Shown: positions 1,725-23,703 of the stretch, piece after piece
Layout of the letters: every line of letters begins with the position of its first letter
Position numbering within the stretch: position 1 is the stretch's first letter
Origin: a virus
Reading direction: 5' to 3' (one strand)
IMG/VR virus record: IMGVR_UViG_3300029448_000314
Coordinates: 1 to 28,010 of that record
Length of the DNA stretch: 28,010 nt
Notes under the pieces: generated by a model
Told to the model about the DNA's origin: nothing
The model's input: the letters and a program-made list of their open reading frames with translations, nothing else
Database searches by the model: none
Made by a program: the position numbers and the translations under genes

Positions 1725-3266
1725 CTAATAATATCCGACACTTCTTCTAGAGAAGTATTTAGTTTCTTCTGGCTCATCTGAAGGTAGTCTTATAAATCCG
1801 CCCTGCCTAAACCGCATAAGCGCCATAACCGTAGAATCAACCAAATCATCGTTACTCATAAATGGGAACCCAGCAATCTCTTCAACAACTTCCTCAGCCC
1901 ATCGAGTTTGGGGTACCCACACCAACTCAGAAGCTATAATATCAGATACAGAATTTAATCGCGCTAATTTATCACCAGATCCTCTATGAGGAGTATATTC
2001 TTGTATAATAAGCCCCATACGACGCATTTCTTGATACAATGCAACACCTGAACTCTTTTTCTCTACAATAAACGCATCTGGATCCCACAAGGTATACTCT
2101 TCCATAGCCAACTCTTTTAGCTCTGGGAACTCATATCTATCCTTAATACTGTTTAATAATATAATGTTATGCGCATTTGTCTCCTCATTGAAGAATACCC
2201 CCCAAGTCGTTAGCGCAGTATAATCTGCCCTATTGTGTTTTTCTGCTGCAGAATCCAGTGACATAATAATATACTCACATGCAGGAGGTCTTTCTTTCTC
2301 CCATATCTGCCACCACTCCCTTTTTACAATAGCCGCTTCTTCTGCGGTAGGTTGCTGCTGATACTGTGCATTCCACTGAAATAATGGCATAGACGCTTTT
2401 GTACGTTCTAAAGCCGCCATATCAAAAAACTCAGGCCACAAAGGCTTTTCTATAAGCTCTCCACTACTTTTATCTTCTATTTCAACGATAGCTGGGAACT
2501 CTACAACGTCATACTGGTCAGATTTCTCATTCTGACTCATATCCTTAACTACACGACCAGTCAAATCATCCATGTGCCATCTAGTTTGTATAATAGCTAC
2601 ACTACCACCCGGCATCAATCGTGTACGAGCACCAAATGTAAACCACTCATAAGCCTTCTCAAATACACTAAAGTTACCATTAATTACATCTTGCTCAGAA
2701 TGTGGGTCATCTACCAACAATAAGTGCGCACCACGACCAGCTAGTGCCGATCCAACACCACATGCGTAGTATTCACCCCCTACACTAGTGTTCCAACGAC
2801 CTGCAGACTTAGAATCCGTAGCTAGCTTCACACTAGGAAATATAGCCTTATAATCGGCTAAACCAAGTAAATTACGTACTTTTCGACCAAAATCTACCGC
2901 TAAATCCGTCGTATGCGACACCATCATCACTTTTTTGTCTGGATTTCGCCCTAAATACCACGCTGGAAAGAAAATAGACACTAATTGTGACTTACCATGC
3001 CTTGGTGGGATGTTTACACATGCCCTATCCTTAACTCCTTTCTCAATATCCATCAACATATCCGCCAAAATGCGGTGATGTTTGCCTACAATGAAGTCCG
3101 GCATCATTCTTTTGCAAAATTCTATCAAATCATCGTACGCAACTTGGTTTTTTTGCCTTGCATCTAACTCATCCACCATTTTCTCGATCTCTGTTACCTC
3201 TGCTTCGGTAAAATTATCAAGATTATCCAACATGTGCTGGACTTCTTCTGGTGTGAAATCACTCAT
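1725..3266 (-). CDS. terL: Terminase large subunit (packaging ATPase-nuclease)
   Basis: This is the motor that drives DNA into the procapsid and cuts the concatemer. It has 513 residues, a normal length. The ATPase domain shows Walker A at about 88-94 (PPRHGKSQ, K92), Walker B at 183-187 (LLVDD) and a coupling-type motif at 226-231 (IIQTRWH). The C-terminal RNase H-like nuclease shows D338 in SLDSA, E402 in VEKKSSG, and D474/D477 in DDLVDS, which fit the metal-binding acidic residues of the Terminase_6C family. The gene overlaps the small subunit gene by 8 bases and is followed 10 bases later by the portal gene, the usual packaging order. All key residues are present, so it looks functional. 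Confidence 0.96.
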   Translation of the reverse strand: MSDFTPEEVQHMLDNLDNFTEAEVTEIEKMVDELDARQKNQVAYDDLIEFCKRMMPDFIVGKHHRILADMLMDIEKGVKDRACVNIPPRHGKSQLVSIFFPAWYLGRNPDKKVMMVSHTTDLAVDFGRKVRNLLGLADYKAIFPSVKLATDSKSAGRWNTSVGGEYYACGVGSALAGRGAHLLLVDDPHSEQDVINGNFSVFEKAYEWFTFGARTRLMPGGSVAIIQTRWHMDDLTGRVVKDMSQNEKSDQYDVVEFPAIVEIEDKSSGELIEKPLWPEFFDMAALERTKASMPLFQWNAQYQQQPTAEEAAIVKREWWQIWEKERPPACEYIIMSLDSAAEKHNRADYTALTTWGVFFNEETNAHNIILLNSIKDRYEFPELKELAMEEYTLWDPDAFIVEKKSSGVALYQEMRRMGLIIQEYTPHRGSGDKLARLNSVSDIIASELVWVPQTRWAEEVVEEIAGFPFMSNDDLVDSTVMALMRFRQGGFIRLPSDEPEETKYFSRRSVGYY

Positions 3267-3825
3267 CTACCGTCTCCGCGTCGATTACGACTGCGTCGCC
3301 ATCAACTTCAGGCGGATTTACGAGTTTTTCTAGTTTTTTACGGAGGTTTTTCTTCAAATCATCTGTTGATTGATGCGTAACTGTAACTTCTGACTTCTCA
3401 GCGAACAGTCCTACATCAGAAACCTTACCCAATAACTCTAATGCACGTAGCCTTACCTTAGCATCAGGGTTTTCTGTCTCTAAAATCAATTTGTTTGTTA
3501 TTAAATGTCGTACAGATATAGCAGATTCGACCACAGAACGACCAAATTCACTCAAAATGTTGTTTGTAAGCACCAAAGATGCCGGAGTTAACTCAGCTAT
3601 ACGCGCTTTAGTGGCTTTTTTAGATGTTTTATCAGGATCTTCTGCGTATGACATGCTTAACATACTCGCTACCGCTTCATCTTCGGCAGTCGGAGTCAAA
3701 TCTAAGCCTTCCTTCTCTAATTCCTTTGCCGTTACCGTAGCAGCACGCGCACGCATAGATAAATCTACCGCAGGATCGTCATCATACACAGGAACGCCAG
3801 TCTCTGGCTCTAGTTTAATCGTCAT
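3259..3825 (-). CDS. Probable terminase small subunit
   Basis: The product has 188 residues, is largely helical and charged, and lies directly upstream of terL with an 8-base overlap. The central part (about 80-140) reads as a helical segment with LTNNILSEFGRSVVESAISV and a following KVRLRALELLGKVSDVGLF stretch. This resembles the oligomerisation/recognition helices of phage small terminases. The C-terminal 50 residues are rich in Lys and acidic residues. Small terminases diverge fast, so the call rests mainly on position, size and helical character. The ATG at 3825 has no clear Shine-Dalgarno sequence; a possible promoter lies just upstream (3858-3886, minus strand). It could instead be an unrelated DNA-binding protein, but the context strongly favours the small terminase. 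Confidence 0.75.
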   Translation of the reverse strand: MTIKLEPETGVPVYDDDPAVDLSMRARAATVTAKELEKEGLDLTPTAEDEAVASMLSMSYAEDPDKTSKKATKARIAELTPASLVLTNNILSEFGRSVVESAISVRHLITNKLILETENPDAKVRLRALELLGKVSDVGLFAEKSEVTVTHQSTDDLKKNLRKKLEKLVNPPEVDGDAVVIDAETVDE

Positions 3826-4486: not shown

Positions 4487-4660
4487 ATCAAATTATCCAT
4501 TATTAAATGGGTTTCAAAAGTAACACACAAAATTTTTTTTGACTAGCCTTTTTAAAACAAGGTGGGGGGTTTTCAGAAAAATACGATTTATTTAAGTAAA
4601 TTGGTATTACATGGTAGCGTGGAGTCCCAAATAAAAAATTGGGGGGTGGGGGGTCTTTTA

Positions 4661-4713: not shown

Positions 4714-4741
4714 TTGACTATGGGTGATAATGTGTTATTAT
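4714..4741 (+). promoter_or_regulatory. Strong sigma70-like promoter with extended -10
   Basis: TTGACT (4714-4719), a 16-base spacer, then TATTAT (4736-4741) preceded by TGT, so the -10 is extended. Transcription would start near 4748, giving a leader of about 50 bases before the gene at 4798. Host RNA polymerase should recognise this, so the downstream gene is probably among the first expressed. Confidence 0.75.
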
Positions 4742-4752
4742 ATAAACAGATC

Positions 4753-4792
4753 GGGGCAATTGGTGCACCGACTAAATGCCCCAGGAGGGGCA
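4753..4792 (+). promoter_or_regulatory. Leader with mutually exclusive hairpins around the ribosome binding site
   Basis: TGCCCC (4777-4782) can pair with GGGGCA downstream (4787-4792) around an AGGA tetraloop, burying most of the Shine-Dalgarno AGGAGGGG (4783-4790). The same TGCCCC can pair instead with an identical GGGGCA upstream (4753-4758), which would free it. The self-complementary GGTGCACC (4762-4769) lies in the loop of the upstream pairing. Confidence 0.55.
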
Positions 4793-4797
4793 ACACT

Positions 4798-5337
4798 ATG
4801 GAAAATTTAATTACTAGCGCAGAAAAAACTGCCTTATCAAATTACGCTAAGACTGATAGCAAGTGCAACCGCACTTTGCAGAATATCATTCTTGAAATTC
4901 ATCACTCTGGCAAGCGTGCTACAGATTACAGATCACCGAAATCTAAGCAATACACTAGCACCGCGACTCCAGAGCAATACACCGGGCGCAAAGATGCGCT
5001 TGCATTGGGACTAGGTGCCGAGGCTTACAAGATTTATAGCGCACCTAAATCAATCGTTAAAGATTGGGACGATACCAAAAAGGCTAAGCGGAAAGCTATC
5101 CAACAAGATGTTGGCACGTATATAGACCGCATAGCTAACAAGCTAGATAGCTTGGAAAATCCTAACAAGGAAAAGGCACCGACTCCACCAGTCAGTGACA
5201 TAGTCAAGATGCGCGAAGCTATCAACAAGGCATTAAAGATTGCAGAAAAGGACGAAACTCCGACCTACAATCTTGAAGCATTAACAAAATGCCTCAATGA
5301 TGCACAGCGTATCCTATCGGTAAGAGTCACCAAATAA
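4798..5337 (+). CDS. Unknown early protein, single-gene transcription unit
   Basis: I do not recognise this 179-residue protein. It is soluble, Lys-rich and mostly helical, with no signal peptide or membrane segment. It has a central basic part (GKRATDYRSPKSKQY and DDTKKAKRKAIQ) and a Pro-rich hinge (APTPPVSD) before a C-terminal helical part ending in ILSVRVTK. The ATG at 4798 is chosen because the very strong AGGAGGGG lies just upstream; an in-frame TTG at 4714 falls inside the promoter and is rejected. The gene has its own promoter and an intrinsic terminator 18 bases after the stop, so it is a stand-alone unit beside the putative origin. An early host-takeover or DNA-binding role would fit this place, but that is inference. 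Confidence 0.85.
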   Translation: MENLITSAEKTALSNYAKTDSKCNRTLQNIILEIHHSGKRATDYRSPKSKQYTSTATPEQYTGRKDALALGLGAEAYKIYSAPKSIVKDWDDTKKAKRKAIQQDVGTYIDRIANKLDSLENPNKEKAPTPPVSDIVKMREAINKALKIAEKDETPTYNLEALTKCLNDAQRILSVRVTK

Positions 5338-5355
5338 CACCAACCCACCAACATA

Positions 5356-5381
5356 GCCACCCTTCGGGGTGGCTTTTTTTT
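5356..5381 (+). terminator. Intrinsic terminator
   Basis: GCCACCC (5356-5362), loop TTCG, GGGTGGC (5367-5373), then eight T. This is a textbook rho-independent terminator with a stable tetraloop. It ends the 4798 transcription unit. Confidence 0.95.
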
Positions 5382-5389
5382 GCCTCAAA

Positions 5390-5406
5390 GTTCTACACTG
5401 TAGAAC
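5390..5406. promoter_or_regulatory. Phage palindrome copy 2
   Basis: GTTCTACA-C-TGTAGAAC; the centre base is C here, where most copies have G. The dyad extends outward to AAAGTTC...GAACTTT. It begins nine bases after the terminator T-tract and is not followed by a gene. Confidence 0.8.
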
Positions 5407-5423
5407 TTTTTTTTCGTCCTGCT

Positions 5424-5509
5424 GATACCAGTATTTTGTATAGTGTGGAGTCGGACTGTCAATAAGTTACACGTTACCACACGATACCAGTACTTTGTAT
5501 AGTGTGGAG
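5424..5509. repeat. 27-base direct repeat pair
   Basis: Positions 5424-5450 and 5483-5509 are the same 27 bases except for one T/C difference. Each begins GATACCAGTA and ends TATAGTGTGGAG. The period is 59 bases. The TATAGTG core recurs at 5976-5982 beside the main promoter, so these may be protein-binding sites. Confidence 0.8.
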
Positions 5510-5660
5510 CAATGTTCCGTTTGTAATGTTCCATTTGTTCCCCTAATGTTCCGTGAATGTTCCGTTTTATTTAGCCAAAAAGTTACAAAACGGTTTCGTG
5601 AATGTTCGTGTAGTATTGTGAACGCGTGTGGTATTAGCAACGTGTGCGATTGTGCGTTTC

Positions 5661-5719
5661 TATCTATCTATCTATCTCTATATTTATAATGTTACTTTTT
5701 TACTAATATATATATATAT
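5661..5719. repeat. Short simple repeats (TATC)4 and (AT)7
   Basis: TATC is repeated four times at 5661-5676 and AT seven times at 5706-5719, with a very AT-rich stretch between. Such easily melted DNA beside iterons fits an unwinding element. Confidence 0.7.
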
Positions 5720-5748
5720 CGTTTATTCGGGGGCACTCTGGCAGATTT

Positions 5749-5766
5749 GTTCTACACGTGTAGAAC
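5749..5766. promoter_or_regulatory. Phage palindrome copy 3
   Basis: GTTCTACAC-GTGTAGAAC, an 18-base perfect palindrome without a centre base. The 7-base arms match the other copies, but the spacing between them is one base longer. It lies within the putative origin, with no start codon nearby. Confidence 0.8.
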
Positions 5767-5945
5767 TTATTTTAAAATATTACCTCACTATTACCGCAAA
5801 AAACGGAACATTGTTACATTACGCGTCACCAGTGACCTACAGCCAAAAACAAAAAGTTACAATCATGGAACATTACAGCATTTCTGGAACAGTCGTTTTG
5901 GTACATTGTAACGATACTACATATTCCACCACAAAATTACGTTAC

Positions 5946-5979
5946 TTGACACAATACCCCACTGTGTTATACTAGTATA
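5946..5979 (+). promoter_or_regulatory. Strong sigma70-like promoter with palindromic -10
   Basis: TTGACA (5946-5951), a 16-base spacer, then TATACT (5968-5973) preceded by TGT (extended -10). The -10 is the left half of a perfect 12-base palindrome TATACTAGTATA (5968-5979), a likely operator. Transcription should start near 5980 and run into the operon that begins at 6070. Confidence 0.8.
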
Positions 5980-6035
5980 GTGATTGGGTGATGACCTGTT
6001 CACACGTGTTGCCTGTGCGCAACGATAACTAATTA

Positions 6036-6052
6036 GTTCTACAGTGTAGAAC
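6036..6052. promoter_or_regulatory. Phage palindrome copy 4
   Basis: GTTCTACA-G-TGTAGAAC. It ends 17 bases before the ATG at 6070, and GAGG follows in the gap. It lies in the transcribed leader of the 5946 promoter, so it would also form a 7-base-pair RNA hairpin. Confidence 0.85.
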
Positions 6053-6069
6053 TTTCCAACGAGGTGTTT

Positions 6070-6264
6070 ATGAACAAGCTAGATTTCAACAACCATTTAT
6101 ATTATCTGCTAATGGATCATGCAGATATTGCAGACGAGACAGACGGACAGCGACTAGCAGGTTGTAGCGTTGACCAAATGTTCGATGATATGTTCGACAA
6201 GCAGGAGTTAGTCGAGCCAATGAGTATGACAACCAAACGAGGTACTAAAAATGACAACATTTAA
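6070..6264 (+). CDS. Small acidic protein of unknown function
   Basis: This 64-residue protein is not recognised. It is acidic, with a DDMFDKQE stretch and a Met-rich C-terminus (VEPMSMTTK), and has no membrane segment. It is the first gene after the strong promoter and palindrome copy 4. The ATG at 6070 is preferred because GAGG (6061-6064) lies upstream at usable spacing; the in-frame GTG at 6064 overlaps that site. It overlaps the next gene by 14 bases, which suggests coupled translation. Confidence 0.75.
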   Translation: MNKLDFNNHLYYLLMDHADIADETDGQRLAGCSVDQMFDDMFDKQELVEPMSMTTKRGTKNDNI

Positions 6265-6871: not shown

Positions 6872-7034
6872 TCGAGAGATATACAGCGATTATATCGTGG
6901 AGCATTTTGAGCGTCAGCAGTGGGACAATTCAATGTTTGATGAGTCTACGTTGCGTGATTTTATTCACCATATACCTGTTAACGTGTTAAAGGATTACTT
7001 TGACATATTGATAGATACAGGAGAAAAAAGATGA
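6861..7034 (+). CDS. Small unknown protein
   Basis: This 57-residue product starts MMSDREIYSDYIVEHFERQQ and is predicted mainly helical and acidic; I do not recognise it. GAGAGGAG (6850-6857) precedes two adjacent ATG codons (6861 and 6864), and either could be used. An upstream in-frame TTG at 6846 would place the start before this strong site and is rejected. The gene overlaps its neighbours on both sides by 11 and 4 bases, as expected of a compact co-translated operon leading into the 7031 gene. Confidence 0.75.
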   Translation: MMSDREIYSDYIVEHFERQQWDNSMFDESTLRDFIHHIPVNVLKDYFDILIDTGEKR

Positions 7035-7912
7035 CAACTAATATCCAAGCCCCAAGCCTAGCATCTAGTGCGATGCTAACAGAGTTAAACATCAGTGTGT
7101 GGACTGGTCGCAAGAAAGACAGGCGCGAGTCCAAGACAGTCGCAGATCAAAACTACGCAGACAGTGGCGTGGTGTCAGTCAATAAGATGTTACTGGGTGA
7201 TTGTGACAAGCTGAAAGCTATCAATGAGATACGTGGCAAGATACGCAACCATATACATTACCCGATGACAATGCCGTGGTCTGACAGTGGTTTGAGGTTG
7301 TTGCCTACATCAGTGTACTTTGACTACAACCAACAGATGGGTGAGGCAATCAATGCGTTCGATACATTGGTTGACGAGTTTATTGATGACTATGATTTTG
7401 CTGTGTCACGTGCACAGGCAAAGCTCGGTAACTTGTTTGTACGTGATGACTACCCAACTTCCGAGCAGATACGCGACAAGTTCGATGTGCGTGTGAATTA
7501 TACACCGCTACCTGATGCAGGTGATTTTCGTGTTGACATTGGCAACGAGGCTAGTGTTCAACTCAAAGCTGACTATGACAAGTTTTACTCTGACCAACTG
7601 AGTAAGGCGATGGGTGATGTGTGGAAACGTATGCACACTGCACTAGCCAACATGTCTGACAAGCTGACCGACAGCAACGGCAAGAAGCAGGTGTTCCGCG
7701 ATACGCTAGTCAGTAACGCGTTATCAATGGTTGACTTGTTGACTACGTGTAACGTGACAGGTGACAGTCAGATGGAAGCGATGCGCCAACGGCTCGAGTC
7801 TACGTTACGTGGTGTGACACCCGAGGGGTTACGTGATGACGAGTTCTTGCGTGCCGAAACTAAATCTAAGGTAGACGACATACTCAAGACTCTACCATCA
7901 TTGGACATGTAA
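7031..7912 (+). CDS. DUF3150-like protein, partner of the MoxR ATPase
   Basis: The 293-residue protein opens with LTELNISVWTGRKKDRRESK, the entry typical of DUF3150 proteins as I know them. It continues with a mainly helical body (IRNHIHYPMTMPWSDSGLRL; later a long helical DYDKFYSDQLSKAMGDVWKR part). DUF3150 genes often lie next to a MoxR-type AAA+ ATPase and a VWA/DUF2201 protein, and that is the order here (8069 and 9142). No catalytic motif is visible, so it is probably a structural or adaptor part of the same complex. The start is the ATG at 7031 in an ATGA overlap. Codon use favours GAC, GAG and CGT, unlike the polymerase genes downstream. The family name comes from sequence pattern and context, not a search. 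Confidence 0.65.
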   Translation: MTTNIQAPSLASSAMLTELNISVWTGRKKDRRESKTVADQNYADSGVVSVNKMLLGDCDKLKAINEIRGKIRNHIHYPMTMPWSDSGLRLLPTSVYFDYNQQMGEAINAFDTLVDEFIDDYDFAVSRAQAKLGNLFVRDDYPTSEQIRDKFDVRVNYTPLPDAGDFRVDIGNEASVQLKADYDKFYSDQLSKAMGDVWKRMHTALANMSDKLTDSNGKKQVFRDTLVSNALSMVDLLTTCNVTGDSQMEAMRQRLESTLRGVTPEGLRDDEFLRAETKSKVDDILKTLPSLDM

Positions 7913-13339: not shown

Positions 13340-13645
13340 ATGGTTGATGCAAGCCCCAAAGAATGGGACGAATTAAGAGAGAAACACCCTGAACTTATCG
13401 AGAAGTATGAAAACTTTTTGAACGAGGTGGGTGACGATCCAGTCAATAACCCGAACCATTACAATACAGGTGGAGTAGAATGTATTGAGGGTATCGAGTC
13501 TAGTATGAGTCCTAACGCGTTTCTAGGTTATCTCAAGGGTAACTGTATGAAATATATGTGGCGTTATGAATACAAGGGTAAGCCTCTTGAAGATTTAGAG
13601 AAAGCCCAATGGTATCTTAACTTGTTATTAGAACGGAATAAGTAA
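13340..13645 (+). CDS. DUF3310 protein
   Basis: This 101-residue protein carries the DUF3310 signature: NPNHYNTGGVECIEGIES, then GYLKGNCMKYMWRYEYKGK and LEDLEKAQWYLNLLL. These proteins are widespread in phages next to DNA polymerase genes and are sometimes annotated as nucleotide kinases, although no kinase P-loop is present and the function is not established. AGGAG precedes the ATG at 13340. The stop overlaps the polymerase start by one base (TAATG). The first 40 residues are an extra acidic N-terminal extension. Confidence 0.88.
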   Translation: MVDASPKEWDELREKHPELIEKYENFLNEVGDDPVNNPNHYNTGGVECIEGIESSMSPNAFLGYLKGNCMKYMWRYEYKGKPLEDLEKAQWYLNLLLERNK

Positions 13646-15477
13646 TGGATTTAATTACTGTAGATTTTGAGACGTATTACGACAAAGACTTCTCACTACG
13701 TAAGGTAACAACGGAAGCCTACATACGTGATCCTCAGTTCGAGGTGATCGGTGTAGGTGTTAAAGTAAATGACAATGAAACGGAGTGGGCTAGTGGAACA
13801 CATGAACAGATCAAGCGTTACTTACATAATTTCGATTGGGCAAATAGCATGTTGTTATGTCATAACACTATGTTCGATGGTGCTATTCTTTCTTGGGTTT
13901 TTGATGTGCGTCCTCGCGTCCTTGCTGATACTCTTTGTATCGCTCGCGCACTGCACGGTGTCGAGGTTGGTGGATCGCTTCATGCTCTTACTCAAAGATA
14001 TAATCTCGGCACTAAGGGGACAGAAGTCCTAGATGCTAAAGGTAAGCGTAGGCTAGACTTTACACCTGAAGAGTTAGGTAGGTATGGTGACTACTGTGTC
14101 AATGATGTAGAGTTAACGTATAACTTGTTTATGCGTATGGCTAAAGGATTCCCTAAGCAGGAGATGCGTATAATTGATATGACGTTACGCATGTTCACAG
14201 AACCAATGCTAGACCTAGACATTGGATTACTCCAACAACACTTAGAAGACACCCAGAAGATCAAAGAAGATTTGATAGAGTCAAGTGGTGTCACACGTGA
14301 ACAGCTAATGAGTAACCCTAAATTTGCCGAACTACTGGTATCCCTGAATGTCGATCCCCCGATGAAAACTAGCCTGACAACAGGCAAAGAAACTTACGCC
14401 TTTGCAAAGAATGATGAAGGGTTTAAAGCATTGTTAGAACACGAAGACCCACGTGTACAAGCACTTGTTACTGCACGCTTGGGTACAAAAAGCACGCTAG
14501 AAGAATCACGCACTGAGAGGTTTATAGGTATTGCTAGACGTGGATTAATACCTATTCCAGTGAGGTACTATGCCGCGCACACTGGTAGGTGGGGCGGTGA
14601 TGACAAGATAAACATACAGAATCTACCTAGTCGTGGTGTCAATGGTAAGAAGTTGAAGTCCAGTATCATTGCGCCAGTAGGTTACACACTAGTTGATTGT
14701 GATTCATCACAGATCGAGGCACGTGTACTTGCATGGTTGGCAGGGCAAGACGATTTGGTTGAGGCGTTTGCCAACAAGGAAGATGTATATATAAAGATGG
14801 CATCTAAGATATACAACGTCAAAGAAGAAGATGTTACCAAAGAGCAACGGTTTGTTGGTAAGAGTACGATACTTGGTGCAGGTTACGGCATGGGTGCTGT
14901 ACGATTTGCTGAACAGTTGGCTACGTTCGGTACAAAGATAGATGTAGAAGAGGCGCGTAGGATTATACAGATATACCGAGATGCTAATTGGAAGATCAGT
15001 CAGTTCTGGCGTAATTGCCAAAACATGTTGGTAGAAATGTCGAGAGACAAAGCAATTTCGTTTGGAGCTAGAAATATTGTTAAGGCTGTACGCACACAAA
15101 CAGGTTATGGTATAGAGTTGCCTAGCGGTTTGGTAATGCGATACGATGACTTACAGTATGAGCAAGGAGAGCGTGGAGTCGAATTTAGTTATATGACTAG
15201 GCGCGGACGTACAAGAATCTATGGTGGTAAGGTTACAGAGAATGTATGCCAAGCCATTGCTAGGTGCATCATGGGTGAACAGATGTTGGCTATAGCTAAG
15301 AGATACAAGCCAGTACTCACAGTACACGATTCTGTGGTATGCTGTGTACCAGATGATGAGTTAGATGAGGCTAGACAGTACATTGAAGAGTGTATGAGTA
15401 CAACACCATCATGGGCAGAAGGTATGCCTATAACGTGTGAGTCTGGCATTGGCAAATCTTATGGAGATTGTGAATAA
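13645..15477 (+). CDS. Family A DNA polymerase with 3'-5' exonuclease domain
   Basis: The replicative polymerase, 610 residues, with no 5' nuclease domain. The exonuclease is of the DEDDy type: D7 and E9 in VDFETYYD, D78 in NTMFD, Y150 and D154 in YCVND. Polymerase motif A is DSSQIEARV (D353), motif B is R402-x3-K406-x7-YG (Y414), and motif C is VHDS (H561, D562, S563). All catalytic Asp residues are present, so it should polymerise and proofread. Motif C has Ser where E. coli Pol I has Glu (HDE). The gene overlaps its neighbours by one base on each side, so it is made together with the DUF3310 protein and the downstream nuclease. Confidence 0.96.
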   Translation: MDLITVDFETYYDKDFSLRKVTTEAYIRDPQFEVIGVGVKVNDNETEWASGTHEQIKRYLHNFDWANSMLLCHNTMFDGAILSWVFDVRPRVLADTLCIARALHGVEVGGSLHALTQRYNLGTKGTEVLDAKGKRRLDFTPEELGRYGDYCVNDVELTYNLFMRMAKGFPKQEMRIIDMTLRMFTEPMLDLDIGLLQQHLEDTQKIKEDLIESSGVTREQLMSNPKFAELLVSLNVDPPMKTSLTTGKETYAFAKNDEGFKALLEHEDPRVQALVTARLGTKSTLEESRTERFIGIARRGLIPIPVRYYAAHTGRWGGDDKINIQNLPSRGVNGKKLKSSIIAPVGYTLVDCDSSQIEARVLAWLAGQDDLVEAFANKEDVYIKMASKIYNVKEEDVTKEQRFVGKSTILGAGYGMGAVRFAEQLATFGTKIDVEEARRIIQIYRDANWKISQFWRNCQNMLVEMSRDKAISFGARNIVKAVRTQTGYGIELPSGLVMRYDDLQYEQGERGVEFSYMTRRGRTRIYGGKVTENVCQAIARCIMGEQMLAIAKRYKPVLTVHDSVVCCVPDDELDEARQYIEECMSTTPSWAEGMPITCESGIGKSYGDCE

Positions 15478-18467: not shown

Positions 18468-18866
18468 ATGTGGGAAGAAAAGTTGAATGCTGAGAAGTTG
18501 ACCGCTGTCTACTTAAAGATTAAAGACAAGCGTGCAGAGTTATCAGCAGATTTTAAAGAGAAAGACACTGAGTTAGTTGAGCAATTAGATAAAGTTAAGA
18601 AGGCTTTGTTAGCATATTGTGAAGAGCAGGGTGTCGATAGTGTAAGGACTTCAGCGGGATTGTTTTATCGTTCTGCGAGAACACGTTACTGGACTAGTGA
18701 TTGGTCTTCAATGCACGAGTTTATTCTTGAGCATGAAGTTCCAGAGTTGTTAGACAAGCGTGTTAATCAGGGCAACATGAAGCAATACTTAGAAGAAAAC
18801 CCCGACCTTGTACCTAAAGGTCTTAACGTAGATTCTGAATACGTTGTATCAGTAAGGAGAAAATAA
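18468..18866 (+). CDS. Conserved-looking phage protein with coiled-coil start
   Basis: This 132-residue protein begins with a charged helical stretch (about 5-50, KIKDKRAELSADFKEKDTEL), probably a coiled coil. A domain with VRTSAGLFYRSARTRYWTSDW and then GNMKQYLEENPDLVPKGL follows. I remember this combination from hypothetical proteins in other phages, near ssDNA-binding and recombination genes, but no function is assigned. AGGAG (18457-18461) fixes the ATG at 18468; a longer frame from 18390 overlaps the helicase gene and lacks a site. The last bases overlap the next ATG (TAATG). Confidence 0.85.
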   Translation: MWEEKLNAEKLTAVYLKIKDKRAELSADFKEKDTELVEQLDKVKKALLAYCEEQGVDSVRTSAGLFYRSARTRYWTSDWSSMHEFILEHEVPELLDKRVNQGNMKQYLEENPDLVPKGLNVDSEYVVSVRRK

Positions 18867-19141
18867 TGTCAGATAATTTTGTTCCAGTCGGTGCGGTAGC
18901 CGATAAGTTTAGTGTATCTAAACACACAGTCCGAATGTGGTTGCGTAAGGGCAAGATACCCGAAGACTTGTATATAAAGATAGGTAACACATACCGCTAT
19001 AATCTTCAAGGGATCGAAAACGTCTTTTTGAGTAGCAACAAAGATTACAAATGTGGTACTGACTTTGATGTTGCGGAGTTCAAAGAGTCAGAAGGGTATA
19101 AAAAGCTACAGGATGTAGACATGCTAGATGAAGACTTTTAG
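18866..19141 (+). CDS. Helix-turn-helix DNA-binding protein
   Basis: A 91-residue protein whose first 60 residues fit a MerR/excisionase-like winged helix: VPVGAVADKFSVSKHTVRMW then LRKGKIPEDLYIKIGNTYRY, with the typical VSxHTVRxWLRxGxIP pattern. The rest is acidic and probably disordered. It is the only clear HTH protein in the window and so a candidate to bind the repeated palindrome or the iterons, though that is speculation. The ATG at 18866 overlaps the previous stop, and AAGGAG lies upstream. There is a one-base overlap with the next gene. Confidence 0.85.
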   Translation: MSDNFVPVGAVADKFSVSKHTVRMWLRKGKIPEDLYIKIGNTYRYNLQGIENVFLSSNKDYKCGTDFDVAEFKESEGYKKLQDVDMLDEDF

Positions 19142-19823: not shown

Positions 19824-20525
19824 ATGGCTAATCAAAATAGCACTTTTATGATACAAAACGTTGAGGCGCAATGGCCTCGTATAAATAAACCCTATCGTTT
19901 CGATAACGCTGAGAATCGCACAGTACCCTGTGACGCGTTTGACGATAACGCCAAGTACGAAATGAAATTCCGCATGACTAAAGATCAAGCTAAGGCTTTG
20001 TACTTAGGTATGTGTGAAGCGTATGAGGCTAAGAAAGAGAAAGGTTGGCCTGAGAAAGTAGACATGCCTTTCAACAAAGACGATGATGGTATGTACACCT
20101 ACAAAGCTACCCTCAAAGGTGCTTATGGTAAAGAGGCTACATTAAAGCCTGTACAATATGACTCGAAAGGAGTTAAACTACCTGATGACTTCATGCTTAC
20201 TACTGGCAGTACAGTTAATATTGCTGTGGTATTTGTACCTTACAATATGCGTGAAGCAGGTATTTCCCTACGTTTGAAAGCGGTACAGGTTATTAAGTAT
20301 GTACCAATGGAAGCATCATCACCCTTTAGTGCAGTTGAGGGTGGGTTTGAATTTACTTCAGAAGATAATCCCTTTGAAGTTGTAGAAGCTAAACCTACTA
20401 CCAATGTTATTGAAGGTGAGTTTGGTGATACACCCGAGCCTAAAAAAGTCAGTAAAAAAGCAGCACCGAAACCAAAAAAGACTGACTCTGATCTTGCATC
20501 AATCGTAGACGATTGGGACGACTAG
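19824..20525 (+). CDS. Single-stranded DNA-binding protein, gp2.5/DUF2815-like
   Basis: The 233-residue protein has an OB-fold-like body: MIQNVEAQWPRINKPYRFDN at the start, a central KATLKGAYGKEATLKPVQYD, and GSTVNIAVVFVPYNMREAGI then SLRLKAVQVIKYV. This is the DUF2815/gp2.5 pattern. The last 60 residues are Lys/Pro-rich and end in an acidic tail (SIVDDWDD), as in T7 gp2.5 and SSB, where the tail recruits polymerase and helicase. It coats ssDNA at the phage fork. AAGG lies upstream of the ATG at 19824. A perfect hairpin (20556-20572) follows in the gap before the primase gene. Confidence 0.85.
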   Translation: MANQNSTFMIQNVEAQWPRINKPYRFDNAENRTVPCDAFDDNAKYEMKFRMTKDQAKALYLGMCEAYEAKKEKGWPEKVDMPFNKDDDGMYTYKATLKGAYGKEATLKPVQYDSKGVKLPDDFMLTTGSTVNIAVVFVPYNMREAGISLRLKAVQVIKYVPMEASSPFSAVEGGFEFTSEDNPFEVVEAKPTTNVIEGEFGDTPEPKKVSKKAAPKPKKTDSDLASIVDDWDD

Positions 20526-20606: not shown

Positions 20607-23417
20607 ATGGATGCAGAAGTATTTTTGCGACACGTCACTGGCGACGATGGATACTACTGTTTATTTGCGGTTAAGTTAGGACAAGAAGATAGACCACAAA
20701 CGTTTCATACAACGTATGATTCGTTACTACAAGAAGCACGTAAGTTAGATGCTCGTGGGTACAGTCCATACTTTGCACTAGGCACGTTTGATAAGAGCGG
20801 TACGCGTGTAGCCGACAATGTAAAACAGTTAAAATCTTTCTTTATGGACATCGACTGCGGGGAAGGCAGAGATTATCCAACCAAGAAGGAAGGACTCCAA
20901 GCCCTACAAAGATTTTGTAAGAAGGTTGAGTTACCACGCCCATTGTTAGTTGATTCTGGCAGGGGTGTACATTGTTACTGGCCTTTGTCTGAAGCTGTTA
21001 GCAGGGACGATTGGAAGCCTGTTGCAGACCACTTGAAACAGTTGTGTAAGAATCATGGGTTTATAATTGACCCCTCAGTAACTGCCGATGCGGCTAGGGT
21101 ACTGCGTATACCTACCACACACAACCACAAGACTGATCCACCATCTCCTGTGGTGTTTTACAGTGAGCATGTACCTGAGTATGTAACTCTTGATGAGTTC
21201 GCTAAGTGTATTGGTGCGGATAAGATTCCTGCACCACAGAAGATAGAGGTGCAACCTATAACTGCTTTTCAAGAAGCGTTGATGGGTAACAAGCAACACA
21301 AATTTAAAGACATAATTACTAGAGAATCTAGCTGTGCGCAGTTGGTTGACATAGTAGTTAATCAGGATGAGTGTAGTGAGCCTATATGGAGGGCAGGTTT
21401 ATCTATAGCTAAGTTCTGTTCTGACGGGCAGAAAGCCGCACACGTTATGTCTAAGAATCACCCTGAGTACTCAGCAGAAGAGACACAGGACAAGTTTGAT
21501 AAGATTAAAGGCCCTTACCTGTGTCATCACTTCGATGAGTACAACCCAGATGTATGTACAAAATGTCCGCACTGGGGCAAGATAAAATCTCCTATATCAT
21601 TAGGTAGCAGTGTAAGAGAAGCTACCGAAGAAGATAACATAGTAGAAGTACCTGCACTTGACCTACCAAATACACCTACTACTACGTATGTAATACCGAC
21701 ATACCCCAAGCCATACTTTAGAGGTGCTAACAATGGTGGCGTGTACATACGTACATCAAATGAAGAAGGTGAGCCTGACGAAGAACTTATATACCACAAC
21801 GACATTTATATTGTGAATCGTATTGTAGATGTCGAGCTTGGTGAAGTTGTGGTAATACGTTTACACCTACCACAAGATGGCGTACGTGAGTTTACAGTTC
21901 CGCTTACCGCAGTAACTTCGAGAGAGGAATTTAGAAAACAAATGTCCATGCAGGGCGTGGCAGTAACAAAGATGGATAAACTTATGACTTATATGACTAC
22001 TTGGATTAACGAGTTACAGGCTACTACAAAAGCTGACAAGGCTCGCACTCAGTTTGGTTGGACTGACGACACACATAAATCTTTTGTTGTGGGCAACCAA
22101 GAAATAACGGCTGATGGTGTTAGCAGTAACCCCCCATCAAAAGCTACCGCAGGTTTGATGAATGCGTTTAAACCTAAAGGTTCTTTGGAACAATGGAAGC
22201 AGATGGCTAACTTCTATAATCGTGATGGGTTTGAGTTACACCAATACATAGTAGCTAGTGCCTTTGGTTCTCCCTTGATGGCCCTTATGCCTGTAGCATG
22301 TTCGGGCTTACACGTGCATAGTAAGGATCATGGGCTTGGTAAGACTACCGCTATGTACGTAGGAGCGTCTGTTTGGGGTGATCCTGAGCAGTTAGTTGTG
22401 AATGCCGTAGATACTCAGAACTCTTTGATGCTACGTGGTGAGGTATACAAGAACCTACCTTTTTACATTGATGAGTTAACAAATGGAGATGGTGAACAAT
22501 TATCTAATCTAGTGTATCAGTTGTCTAGTGGTAAGCAACGTAATCGGATGTCAGGTAACTCAAACACAGAAAGAGTACGTGGTGAGCCGTGGAGTCTGTT
22601 GGCTGTATCTACAGGTAATACTAGTGTGATTGAAACTATAAGTTCCTTTAAGAATGCTCCGAAGGCCGAGGCGGCTCGCCTACTAGAAACAAAAGCTGTT
22701 AAGTTGTTTGACGAAACAAAGACTAAGCATCTTACTGACAAGCATCAAGCTAACTCTAAAAACATTCATGGGCATGCAGGTGTGCCTTACATGCAACACG
22801 TTATACAAAACGTAGATAGGGTTATAGCGTTGTTACAAGAAATACAACAAAAAGTAGACACTGGAGCAGGGCTTACTGCACAAGACAGATACTGGTCAGC
22901 GGGTACTACTGTTAACCTAGCAGGGTTTTTGTTAGCTAGAGAAATAGGGCTACTGGACTATGATAGGGAAAAACTATTTAGGTATGCCATACGGCTACTC
23001 GGTGAGAACAAGGCATCAGCTAATGATTTAATATCTTCTACGGCAGATGTATTGAATGACTTTGTGCATGAGCATTGGGGTAGCATTCTAAAAATTAGAA
23101 GTACTGACGACTTACGTAAGGCGCAAGGCAACGGCATGGATGATTTAGTAATACCTGAGTCTGACCCACGGATTAAGTTAGTAGGTAGATATGAGACTGA
23201 TCTTAAAAAGCTGTACATAGTACCCAAAGTATTAAAGTCGTGGTGTGCTAAACAGCAGATAAACTACAGTTCTTTGATACAAGATTTTAAAGATAAGTTT
23301 AAGGGCAAGTCTATGAAAATACGCTTGACCAAAGGGACACCTACACAGATGCCCCCATCACATGTCTTGTGTGTTGACTGTTCGCAAGTTGATCTAGAAG
23401 AAGATGCTAAAACTTGA
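20607..23417 (+). CDS. AEP-type primase fused to a helicase
   Basis: A 936-residue fusion that probably both primes and unwinds DNA at the fork. The N-terminal primase has the archaeo-eukaryotic primase pattern: MDIDCG with D81 and D83, DSGRGVHCYW with S117-x-G-x-H122, and a DPSVTADAARVLRIPTTHN segment (155-173). A Cys/His cluster follows (LCHHFDE...DVCTKCPHWG, about 306-330), which resembles the region after the primase in PriCT-type proteins. The C-terminal part has Walker A GLGKTT (K579) and Walker B FYIDE (D622, E623), as in DUF927/D5-like helicases. No DnaB-like or DnaG-like gene is seen in the window, so this protein likely supplies both functions. The ATG follows an AGGA-containing site. 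Confidence 0.88.
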   Translation: MDAEVFLRHVTGDDGYYCLFAVKLGQEDRPQTFHTTYDSLLQEARKLDARGYSPYFALGTFDKSGTRVADNVKQLKSFFMDIDCGEGRDYPTKKEGLQALQRFCKKVELPRPLLVDSGRGVHCYWPLSEAVSRDDWKPVADHLKQLCKNHGFIIDPSVTADAARVLRIPTTHNHKTDPPSPVVFYSEHVPEYVTLDEFAKCIGADKIPAPQKIEVQPITAFQEALMGNKQHKFKDIITRESSCAQLVDIVVNQDECSEPIWRAGLSIAKFCSDGQKAAHVMSKNHPEYSAEETQDKFDKIKGPYLCHHFDEYNPDVCTKCPHWGKIKSPISLGSSVREATEEDNIVEVPALDLPNTPTTTYVIPTYPKPYFRGANNGGVYIRTSNEEGEPDEELIYHNDIYIVNRIVDVELGEVVVIRLHLPQDGVREFTVPLTAVTSREEFRKQMSMQGVAVTKMDKLMTYMTTWINELQATTKADKARTQFGWTDDTHKSFVVGNQEITADGVSSNPPSKATAGLMNAFKPKGSLEQWKQMANFYNRDGFELHQYIVASAFGSPLMALMPVACSGLHVHSKDHGLGKTTAMYVGASVWGDPEQLVVNAVDTQNSLMLRGEVYKNLPFYIDELTNGDGEQLSNLVYQLSSGKQRNRMSGNSNTERVRGEPWSLLAVSTGNTSVIETISSFKNAPKAEAARLLETKAVKLFDETKTKHLTDKHQANSKNIHGHAGVPYMQHVIQNVDRVIALLQEIQQKVDTGAGLTAQDRYWSAGTTVNLAGFLLAREIGLLDYDREKLFRYAIRLLGENKASANDLISSTADVLNDFVHEHWGSILKIRSTDDLRKAQGNGMDDLVIPESDPRIKLVGRYETDLKKLYIVPKVLKSWCAKQQINYSSLIQDFKDKFKGKSMKIRLTKGTPTQMPPSHVLCVDCSQVDLEEDAKT

Positions 23418-23667: not shown

Positions 23668-23703
23668 CTCCCTGATGTTCCGAGGCATCGGGGAGTTTTT
23701 TTT
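23668..23703 (+). terminator. Intrinsic terminator of the plus-strand arm
   Basis: CTCCCTGATG (23668-23677), loop TTCCGAGG, CATCGGGGAG (23686-23695), giving ten pairs with one G-U, then eight T. The T-tract reaches the stop codon of the convergent minus-strand gene. It closes the whole plus-strand arm. Confidence 0.93.

Follow-up and report, generated by a model that had tools for sequence, protein, structure and literature searches.

A two-sided iteron array ahead of a phage replication operon as a candidate origin for an AEP-primase/DUF927-helicase

The stretch of DNA analysed here, called the window, comprises 28,010 bases of the IMG/VR virus record IMGVR_UViG_3300029448_000314 and carries an array of short repeated words in a slot (5340-6070) between a rightward open reading frame (ORF) with its terminator and a rightward replication operon. 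The array and its two-sided layout are seen directly. The left half (5511-5565, + strand) contains five direct copies of the 6-bp core TGTTCC at 5513, 5527, 5536, 5547 and 5558, with spacings of 14, 9, 11 and 11, and the right half (5803-5912, - strand) contains inverted copies at 5805, 5867 and 5886, giving eight cores in the order five + then three -. The two halves flank a strandless centre (5569-5800) of 67% AT with CTAT repeats at 5660-5677 and an (AT)7 tract at 5706-5719, which is a candidate melting region. Variant cores are also found between 5466 and 5912, namely TGTAAC (five), TGTTAC (two) and TGTACC (one). In the right half, the - strand carries TGTAAC twice (5813, 5856) and TGTACC once (5900), and the + strand carries TGTTAC at 5812 and TGTAAC at 5907; single variants stand in the centre at 5582 (-), 5603 (+), 5690 (+) and 5748 (+). 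From sequence, structural modelling and analogy with known replicons, we consider it likely that this array serves as the origin of replication and that the phage itself encodes the protein that binds it, an AEP-primase/DUF927-helicase (20607-23417, + strand) with a predicted C-terminal winged helix as the binding domain.

The initial annotation had proposed an initiator-controlled origin on the basis of six exact copies of AATGTTCCRT, four direct and two inverted. All six were recovered (5511+, 5525+, 5545+, 5556+, 5803-, 5865-) and none was observed elsewhere in the 28,010 bases. When up to one mismatch was allowed, 12 matches were counted versus 3.7 expected, a number reached in 0 of 100 shuffles. 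Six is nevertheless too low a copy number because the TGTTCC core, with its eight copies and its variants, is the better repeat unit. The other elements of that annotation are present as well: the 27-base direct repeat pair, starting with GATACCAGT on the + strand (5424-5450 and 5483-5509, 96% identity), the CTAT and (AT)7 tracts, and the 12-base pair AAAAAGTTACAA, which sits within 13-mers at 5576 and 5850. A related string, ATGTTCCG, was said to lie in a terminator loop at 23675; it does occur there but, by our reading of the sequence, spans stem and loop, and this lone copy is most simply explained by chance. The slot itself is non-coding, in agreement with the claim that it holds no credible gene. 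Two ORFs cover it; among the ten relatives given, stops interrupt the ORF at 5495-5689 in six of eight matching relatives (it is intact in L015 and in the near copy L114) and the ORF at 5628-5975 in nine of ten (intact in L114). An Rfam search over the slot returned just three matches, all far under gathering scores. As in iteron origins, several copies of a short word thus stand beyond chance in a non-coding stretch, and an AT-rich region, the putative melting site, adjoins them.

Relatives were found by scanning IMG/VR with the 293-aa DUF3150-like protein that forms the right border of the slot (7031-7912, + strand; its Pfam score is under the cut-off), which yielded 50 loci (L007-L056) taken as the fair sample. 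A second retrieval was made as DNA with two AATGTTCCRT within 30 bp, and it reached the same phage group, 49 of 118 loci (L057-L174) having homologues of window genes among the matches listed. Since retrieval by the iteron pattern biases slot counts, the protein-retrieved slots were counted separately. At least six copies of one of seven preset words were observed in 35 of 40 non-redundant full slots, the window included, and in 0 of 800 dinucleotide shuffles. In the protein-retrieved non-redundant set the proportion was 22 of 23, the exception (L036) carrying six AGTACC. The arrays have between 6 and 15 copies, split into two opposed sets by an AT-rich gap. In 34 of the 35 array slots the layout is + then - with a polarity of at least 0.8, a value that random orientations attain 24-32% of the time. 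Neighbouring same-strand cores (less than 40 bp apart) are 8-11 bp apart in 120 of 171 cases, and the largest internal gap is richer in AT than its own slot in 31 of 35. In the 38 genomes examined via fetched right arms or parts of them, a recognisable array was present in 31, when the mixed G029 and G059 are counted in.

What changes in the kept place is the word. The same slot in relatives holds TGTTAC, TGTAAC, TGTACC, AGTTCC or TGTTCT/G, as exemplified by the arrays AATGTTACC, ATTGTTCCA, AAGTTCCAA and AATGTACCA, and in aligned slots of near relatives the words are replaced site for site with other blocks unchanged. Absence of the repeats from close relatives that share the replication genes had been named in advance as evidence against an origin. 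It holds for the exact AATGTTCCRT, which is missing from most of them because their word differs, but not for the layout, and a candidate initiator-controlled origin is the best reading. Outside this group, a home-made scan of phages Rollin (15,000-61,282 only) and RHph_TM27A revealed no comparable two-sided array; a nucleotide search of the window against phages gave no match and a host look-up in a genome collection gave no relative. In Planktothrix phage Pag-Yong1 (L571; scanned over 20,728-65,014 only), nine direct GTCATA copies lie within 450 bp at about 3226, near terminase genes, and may represent a different origin or an array with a regulatory role.

We assigned words from counts, for 30 genomes in all. 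In six of them (G015, G025, G031, G044, G048 and G064) the last base of the word is mixed, which makes the border between TGTTCC and TGTTC[GT] soft, and G066 carries just four TGTACC copies. A tree of 27 polymerases requires 12 word changes, versus a mean of 13.9 for shuffled labels (13 of 200 as low), and TGTACC is forced apart four times. For instance, G016 (AGTTCC) and G066 (TGTACC) have polymerases that are 98% identical. In the same way, the polymerases of G044 (TGTTCC) and G045 (TGTTAC) are 97% identical, and the DNA of these two genomes, almost the same next to the array, differs inside it.

The AEP-helicase is the proposed initiator. It was present in 26 of 42 records searched, the remaining ones being mostly short, and part of its domain make-up is read directly from the family: DUF927 was recognised in 48 of 48 members, and the AEP domain was detected through the LigD Prim-Pol model in 38 of 48 at E values up to 1 (best 9.3e-6), the full-length window protein falling outside these. 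When compared with the PDB, the helicase profile matched 8tch, a SaPIBov1 replication initiator by its title (2.4e-19), and 5dgk, Cch (4.3e-13); a single further match stood at an E value of 0.6. The predicted model retrieved Cch first (4.2e-18), then SaPIBov1 Rep (1.5e-17), and the AEP domain of the phage S-2L PrimPol as fold match of rank 12 (TM 0.74 on target). By profile and model, the helicase thus appears closest to SaPIbov1 Rep and the staphylococcal cassette chromosome (SCCmec) Cch, an iteron-using family. Its C-terminus is predicted to form a winged helix at about residues 860-924, with wing strands at 901-905 and 918-924 according to our reading of the element order in the model; the predicted confidence (pLDDT) is 83-95 at 857-906 and 69 in the wing loop. 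The best fold matches of this C-terminus, weak at E 0.23, are what we take to be winged-helix and other DNA-binding domains. No match to the PDB was obtained for it by sequence, and the Pfam Cch helix-turn-helix (HTH) domain was found under cut-off (E 0.078) in one of the three C-termini given. In a subgroup of AEP-helicases (L221, L223, L225 and L230) the region between AEP and DUF927, about residues 215-357 of the window protein, is barely alignable, and this middle domain may have been swapped or lost.

If this protein reads the iterons, its wing could be expected to vary with the word, and a partial match of this kind is seen. The diagnostic, column and block tests were run on 28 of the 30 worded genomes, without G029 (mixed word) and G039 (a near copy of G035), and the truncated AEP-helicases of G016, G028 and G064 contribute no winged-helix residues. 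Among the columns of 11 conserved proteins, Q904 of the AEP-helicase was the sole one diagnostic of the four TGTACC phages and L917 the sole one diagnostic of the two TGTTAC phages, both residues lying in the predicted wing. Q904 goes together with R919 in all four TGTACC phages, and D919 occurs in all six TGTTC[GT] phages as well as in G025 and G029, which have mixed words. As controls, any diagnostic column was obtained in 8 of 300 random sets of four and in one of the 11 alternatives made from the TGTACC set by swapping sisters. In addition, the winged-helix block ranked first of 75 protein blocks in tracking the word, its value being equalled in 18 of 1000 label shuffles (7 of 1000 for close relatives). 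Fourteen close pairs, not mutually independent, differ in word and have complete C-termini, and in all 14 the winged helix is more diverged than the remainder of the protein; in G044 and G045 it is 75% identical versus 91% for the rest.

A second candidate reader is the predicted MerR/HTH_17-like DNA-binding protein (18866-19141, + strand). The array could be an origin whose word is read by another protein, this one or a fast-evolving small protein, that would load the AEP-helicase. Many phages split the initiator and helicase roles between two proteins, and the HTH protein, which diverges fast, is present in 20 of 20 arms. Yet its domain is 98-100% identical across differing words in G012/G067, G054/G067, G005/G012 and G005/G054, and its blocks hardly associate with the word (r 0.03 and -0.01; close relatives 0.08 and 0.13). 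The 207-aa ORF at 4714-5337 was detected in only 4 of 20 arms (several arms end short of the locus; L218 reaches it, and the ORF was not detected there). Between the window and G001, which differ in word, identity is 86-98% for the DUF3150, AAA, VWA, polymerase and SNF2 proteins. Reading by such a separate protein therefore seems improbable to us; of the two candidates, indirect evidence supports the AEP primase-helicase, while the HTH protein was set aside as an unlikely reader.

The same HTH protein, encoded further along the same strand, could instead act as a regulator, the array being then an operator with no replication role that controls an early promoter. A sigma-70-type promoter, TTGACA-16-TATACT (11/12, a pattern match), stands right of the array at 5946-5973 on the + strand, toward the replication operon, and the last core ends 33 bp ahead of its -35 box; the pattern scan gave 7 sites in 2 kb versus 5.4 expected. 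Moreover, the HTH domain is just 52% (window/G002) and 67% (G044/G045) identical where words differ, as opposed to the near identity across differing words in the four pairs above. Against an operator stand the 6-15 iterons, divided into two opposed sets by an AT-rich gap, and the single location of the exact word in the window, and a better candidate is available. The perfect, operator-like palindrome AGTTCTACACTGTAGAACT (5389-5407, no strand) recurs at 4660, 6035, 8031, 10776 and 12792; written as AGTTCTACANTGTAGAACT, it stands in perfect or near-perfect form ahead of successive genes, with 6 matches at up to 3 mismatches versus 0.03 expected. We thus regard the operator explanation as unlikely.

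We also considered that the array serves as a packaging (pac) site, with the small terminase subunit as its reader. Such sites often lie near terS in headful phages, and the array stands beside terminase genes in those relatives that reach that far. In the window, the left border of the slot is a putative small terminase (3259-3825, - strand; named from its position beside the large subunit alone, with no PHROG match), but this presumed subunit is 92% and 95% identical to those of G001 and G002, whose words differ. The layout follows that of iteron origins and the match between wing and word points to a replication protein, which makes packaging a very remote explanation.

Reading of the array as an origin by the AEP-helicase also has to be weighed against a number of contrary observations. 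The array of the window is itself a mixture of TGTTCC and variants, and no such array was found in 7 of the 38 genomes, whose upstream sequence exceeds 1 kb in five cases and is under 0.8 kb in two. GC skew switches sign near the array in the window and in the 66-kb relative G001, at a place where the direction of transcription switches too; over the whole record, the running sum has its minimum at the record's start. In the TGTTAC control, three of five alternative pairs also had a diagnostic column, so that this result is weak alone. Corrected over all 75 blocks, the winged-helix value is reached by 474 of 1000 shuffles (176 of 1000 for close relatives). Residue 919, at the top of 2,653 columns on two measures, was set aside as decisive evidence, since the best column under shuffled labels reached its association in 58 of 150 runs. 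Residues 904 and 914-920 are the same in the window and G002, whose words differ (TGTTCC and TGTAAC), R919 is also present in G069, whose word is TGTTCC, and six different residues occupy position 919 among TGTTCC phages. The winged helix is the more diverged part in one of three same-word close pairs (G012/G054) and may therefore simply evolve fast, and the HTH protein diverges along with the word in two close pairs (window/G002 and G044/G045). Finally, the origins of phage-inducible chromosomal islands (PICIs) lie directly 3' of rep (PMC6092414, PMC7581432), while the array ends at 5912 and the AEP-helicase gene starts at 20607, 14.7 kb off.

Because the column and block scans fail correction, the argument rests on the diagnostic residues and on a prior from the Staphylococcus aureus pathogenicity islands (SaPIs): the iterons are recognised there by the C-terminal domain of SaPI Rep, and in PICI origins an AT-rich region has one iteron set on either side (PMC6092414, PMC7581432). 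The covariation counts at all because a winged-helix domain was expected beforehand. The AEP-primase/DUF927-helicase would bind the TGTTCC cores through its predicted winged helix and load, probably as one ring per inverted half-array. The AT-rich centre would be opened, the helicase would unwind outward and the AEP domain would prime for the phage's polymerase.

With the PICI/SaPI replicon (SaPIbov1 Rep-ori; PMC6092414, PMC7581432) the phage shares the two iteron sets around an AT-rich region, a DUF927/Cch-type initiator helicase whose C-terminal domain binds DNA (a prediction for the phage) and an AEP primase, PICI primase and Rep being sometimes fused. By contrast, in the phage primase and helicase are one polypeptide, and the array is bordered on its right by a promoter-like site belonging to the replication operon. 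The phage has its own large terminase, polymerase and SNF2 helicase and is apparently no satellite, with records of relatives of up to 70 kb. Since layout, helicase family and primase type agree, the array may work like a PICI origin; it is not classed as one because gene distance and the apparent autonomy of the phage disagree. The SCCmec Cch/Cch2 system (PMC7581432) provides the best structural match of the helicase, Cch, but is described with three 5-nt iterons, unlike the 6-bp cores in two opposed multi-copy sets on a phage carrier seen here. Phage P4 alpha (PMC4234260, PMC6092414), likened by description only, likewise combines primase, helicase and an origin-repeat-binding winged helix (predicted in our phage) in one protein; its primase is of TOPRIM type (PMC4234260) instead of an AEP primase joined to a DUF927 helicase. 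In the Vibrio cholerae satellite PLE (PICI-like element) RepA and phage ICP1 Odn system (PMC8263062, PMC7145576), iterons and replication module also vary between near relatives, but the initiator is a RepA_N protein without helicase or primase. No published description of such an origin in phages was found among titles and abstract openings, a partial coverage of the literature. What appears to be new is a PICI-type iteron layout with a helicase of the same family in an apparently autonomous phage group. Seven origin words and the accompanying winged-helix variants among related phages form a natural series in which the reading rules of an initiator family become testable, and they provide concrete origin predictions for many uncultured phage genomes.

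A more speculative view, toward which we remain somewhat sceptical, is that these uncultured phages form a large lineage whose protein-DNA recognition code is in rapid and repeated flux. The whole array of about ten sites and wing residues 904, 917 and 919 would have been rewritten together repeatedly, driven by parasites, competitors or initiator-mimicking nucleases that target origins. If so, change would be favoured for its own sake, lock and key being forced to keep changing. The ICP1 nuclease Odn mimics an initiator and iteron change is an escape (PMC8263062); by analogy, an Odn-like enemy is one possible driver of the word switching in these phages.

Several further elements lie in or near the slot. 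On its left, an intrinsic terminator (5355-5374, + strand) is located 3' of the upstream rightward ORF (4714-5337). Between the AT tract and the right half, a block at 5722-5745 (TTTATTCGGGGGCACTCTGGCAGA / TTTATTCGRGGGCACTCTGGCAGA, + strand) is strongly kept in alignments of near relatives and stays while the surrounding iterons change; it could be a priming or melting site. The string GATACCAG was found in the 2.7 kb ahead of the DUF3150 gene in 23 of the 38 genomes, always on the + strand; across right arms it occurs 58 times on the - strand and 29 times on the +, an imbalance that is probably a coding bias. Variants of the palindrome with longer spacing stand at 5749 and 6649. Different repeats occur close to this slot in other lineages, for example GTTATAACACGTGTTATAAC in L378/L379 and TGCCCGAAA in L020-L026, and these differing palindromes and repeats are possibly lineage-specific operators. 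Further along, the replication operon encodes a DNA polymerase (13645-15477, + strand; family A by our own naming), and a Gp2.5-like single-stranded-DNA-binding protein is encoded at 19824-20525 (+ strand). Between 7031 and 10377, the gene of the DUF3150-like protein precedes those of an AAA ATPase and a metallopeptidase/VWA protein (phrog_1297, DUF2201); this trio was present in all 19 right arms that span it, and its last two members are, by annotation, also found in Rhizobium phage RHph_TM27A.
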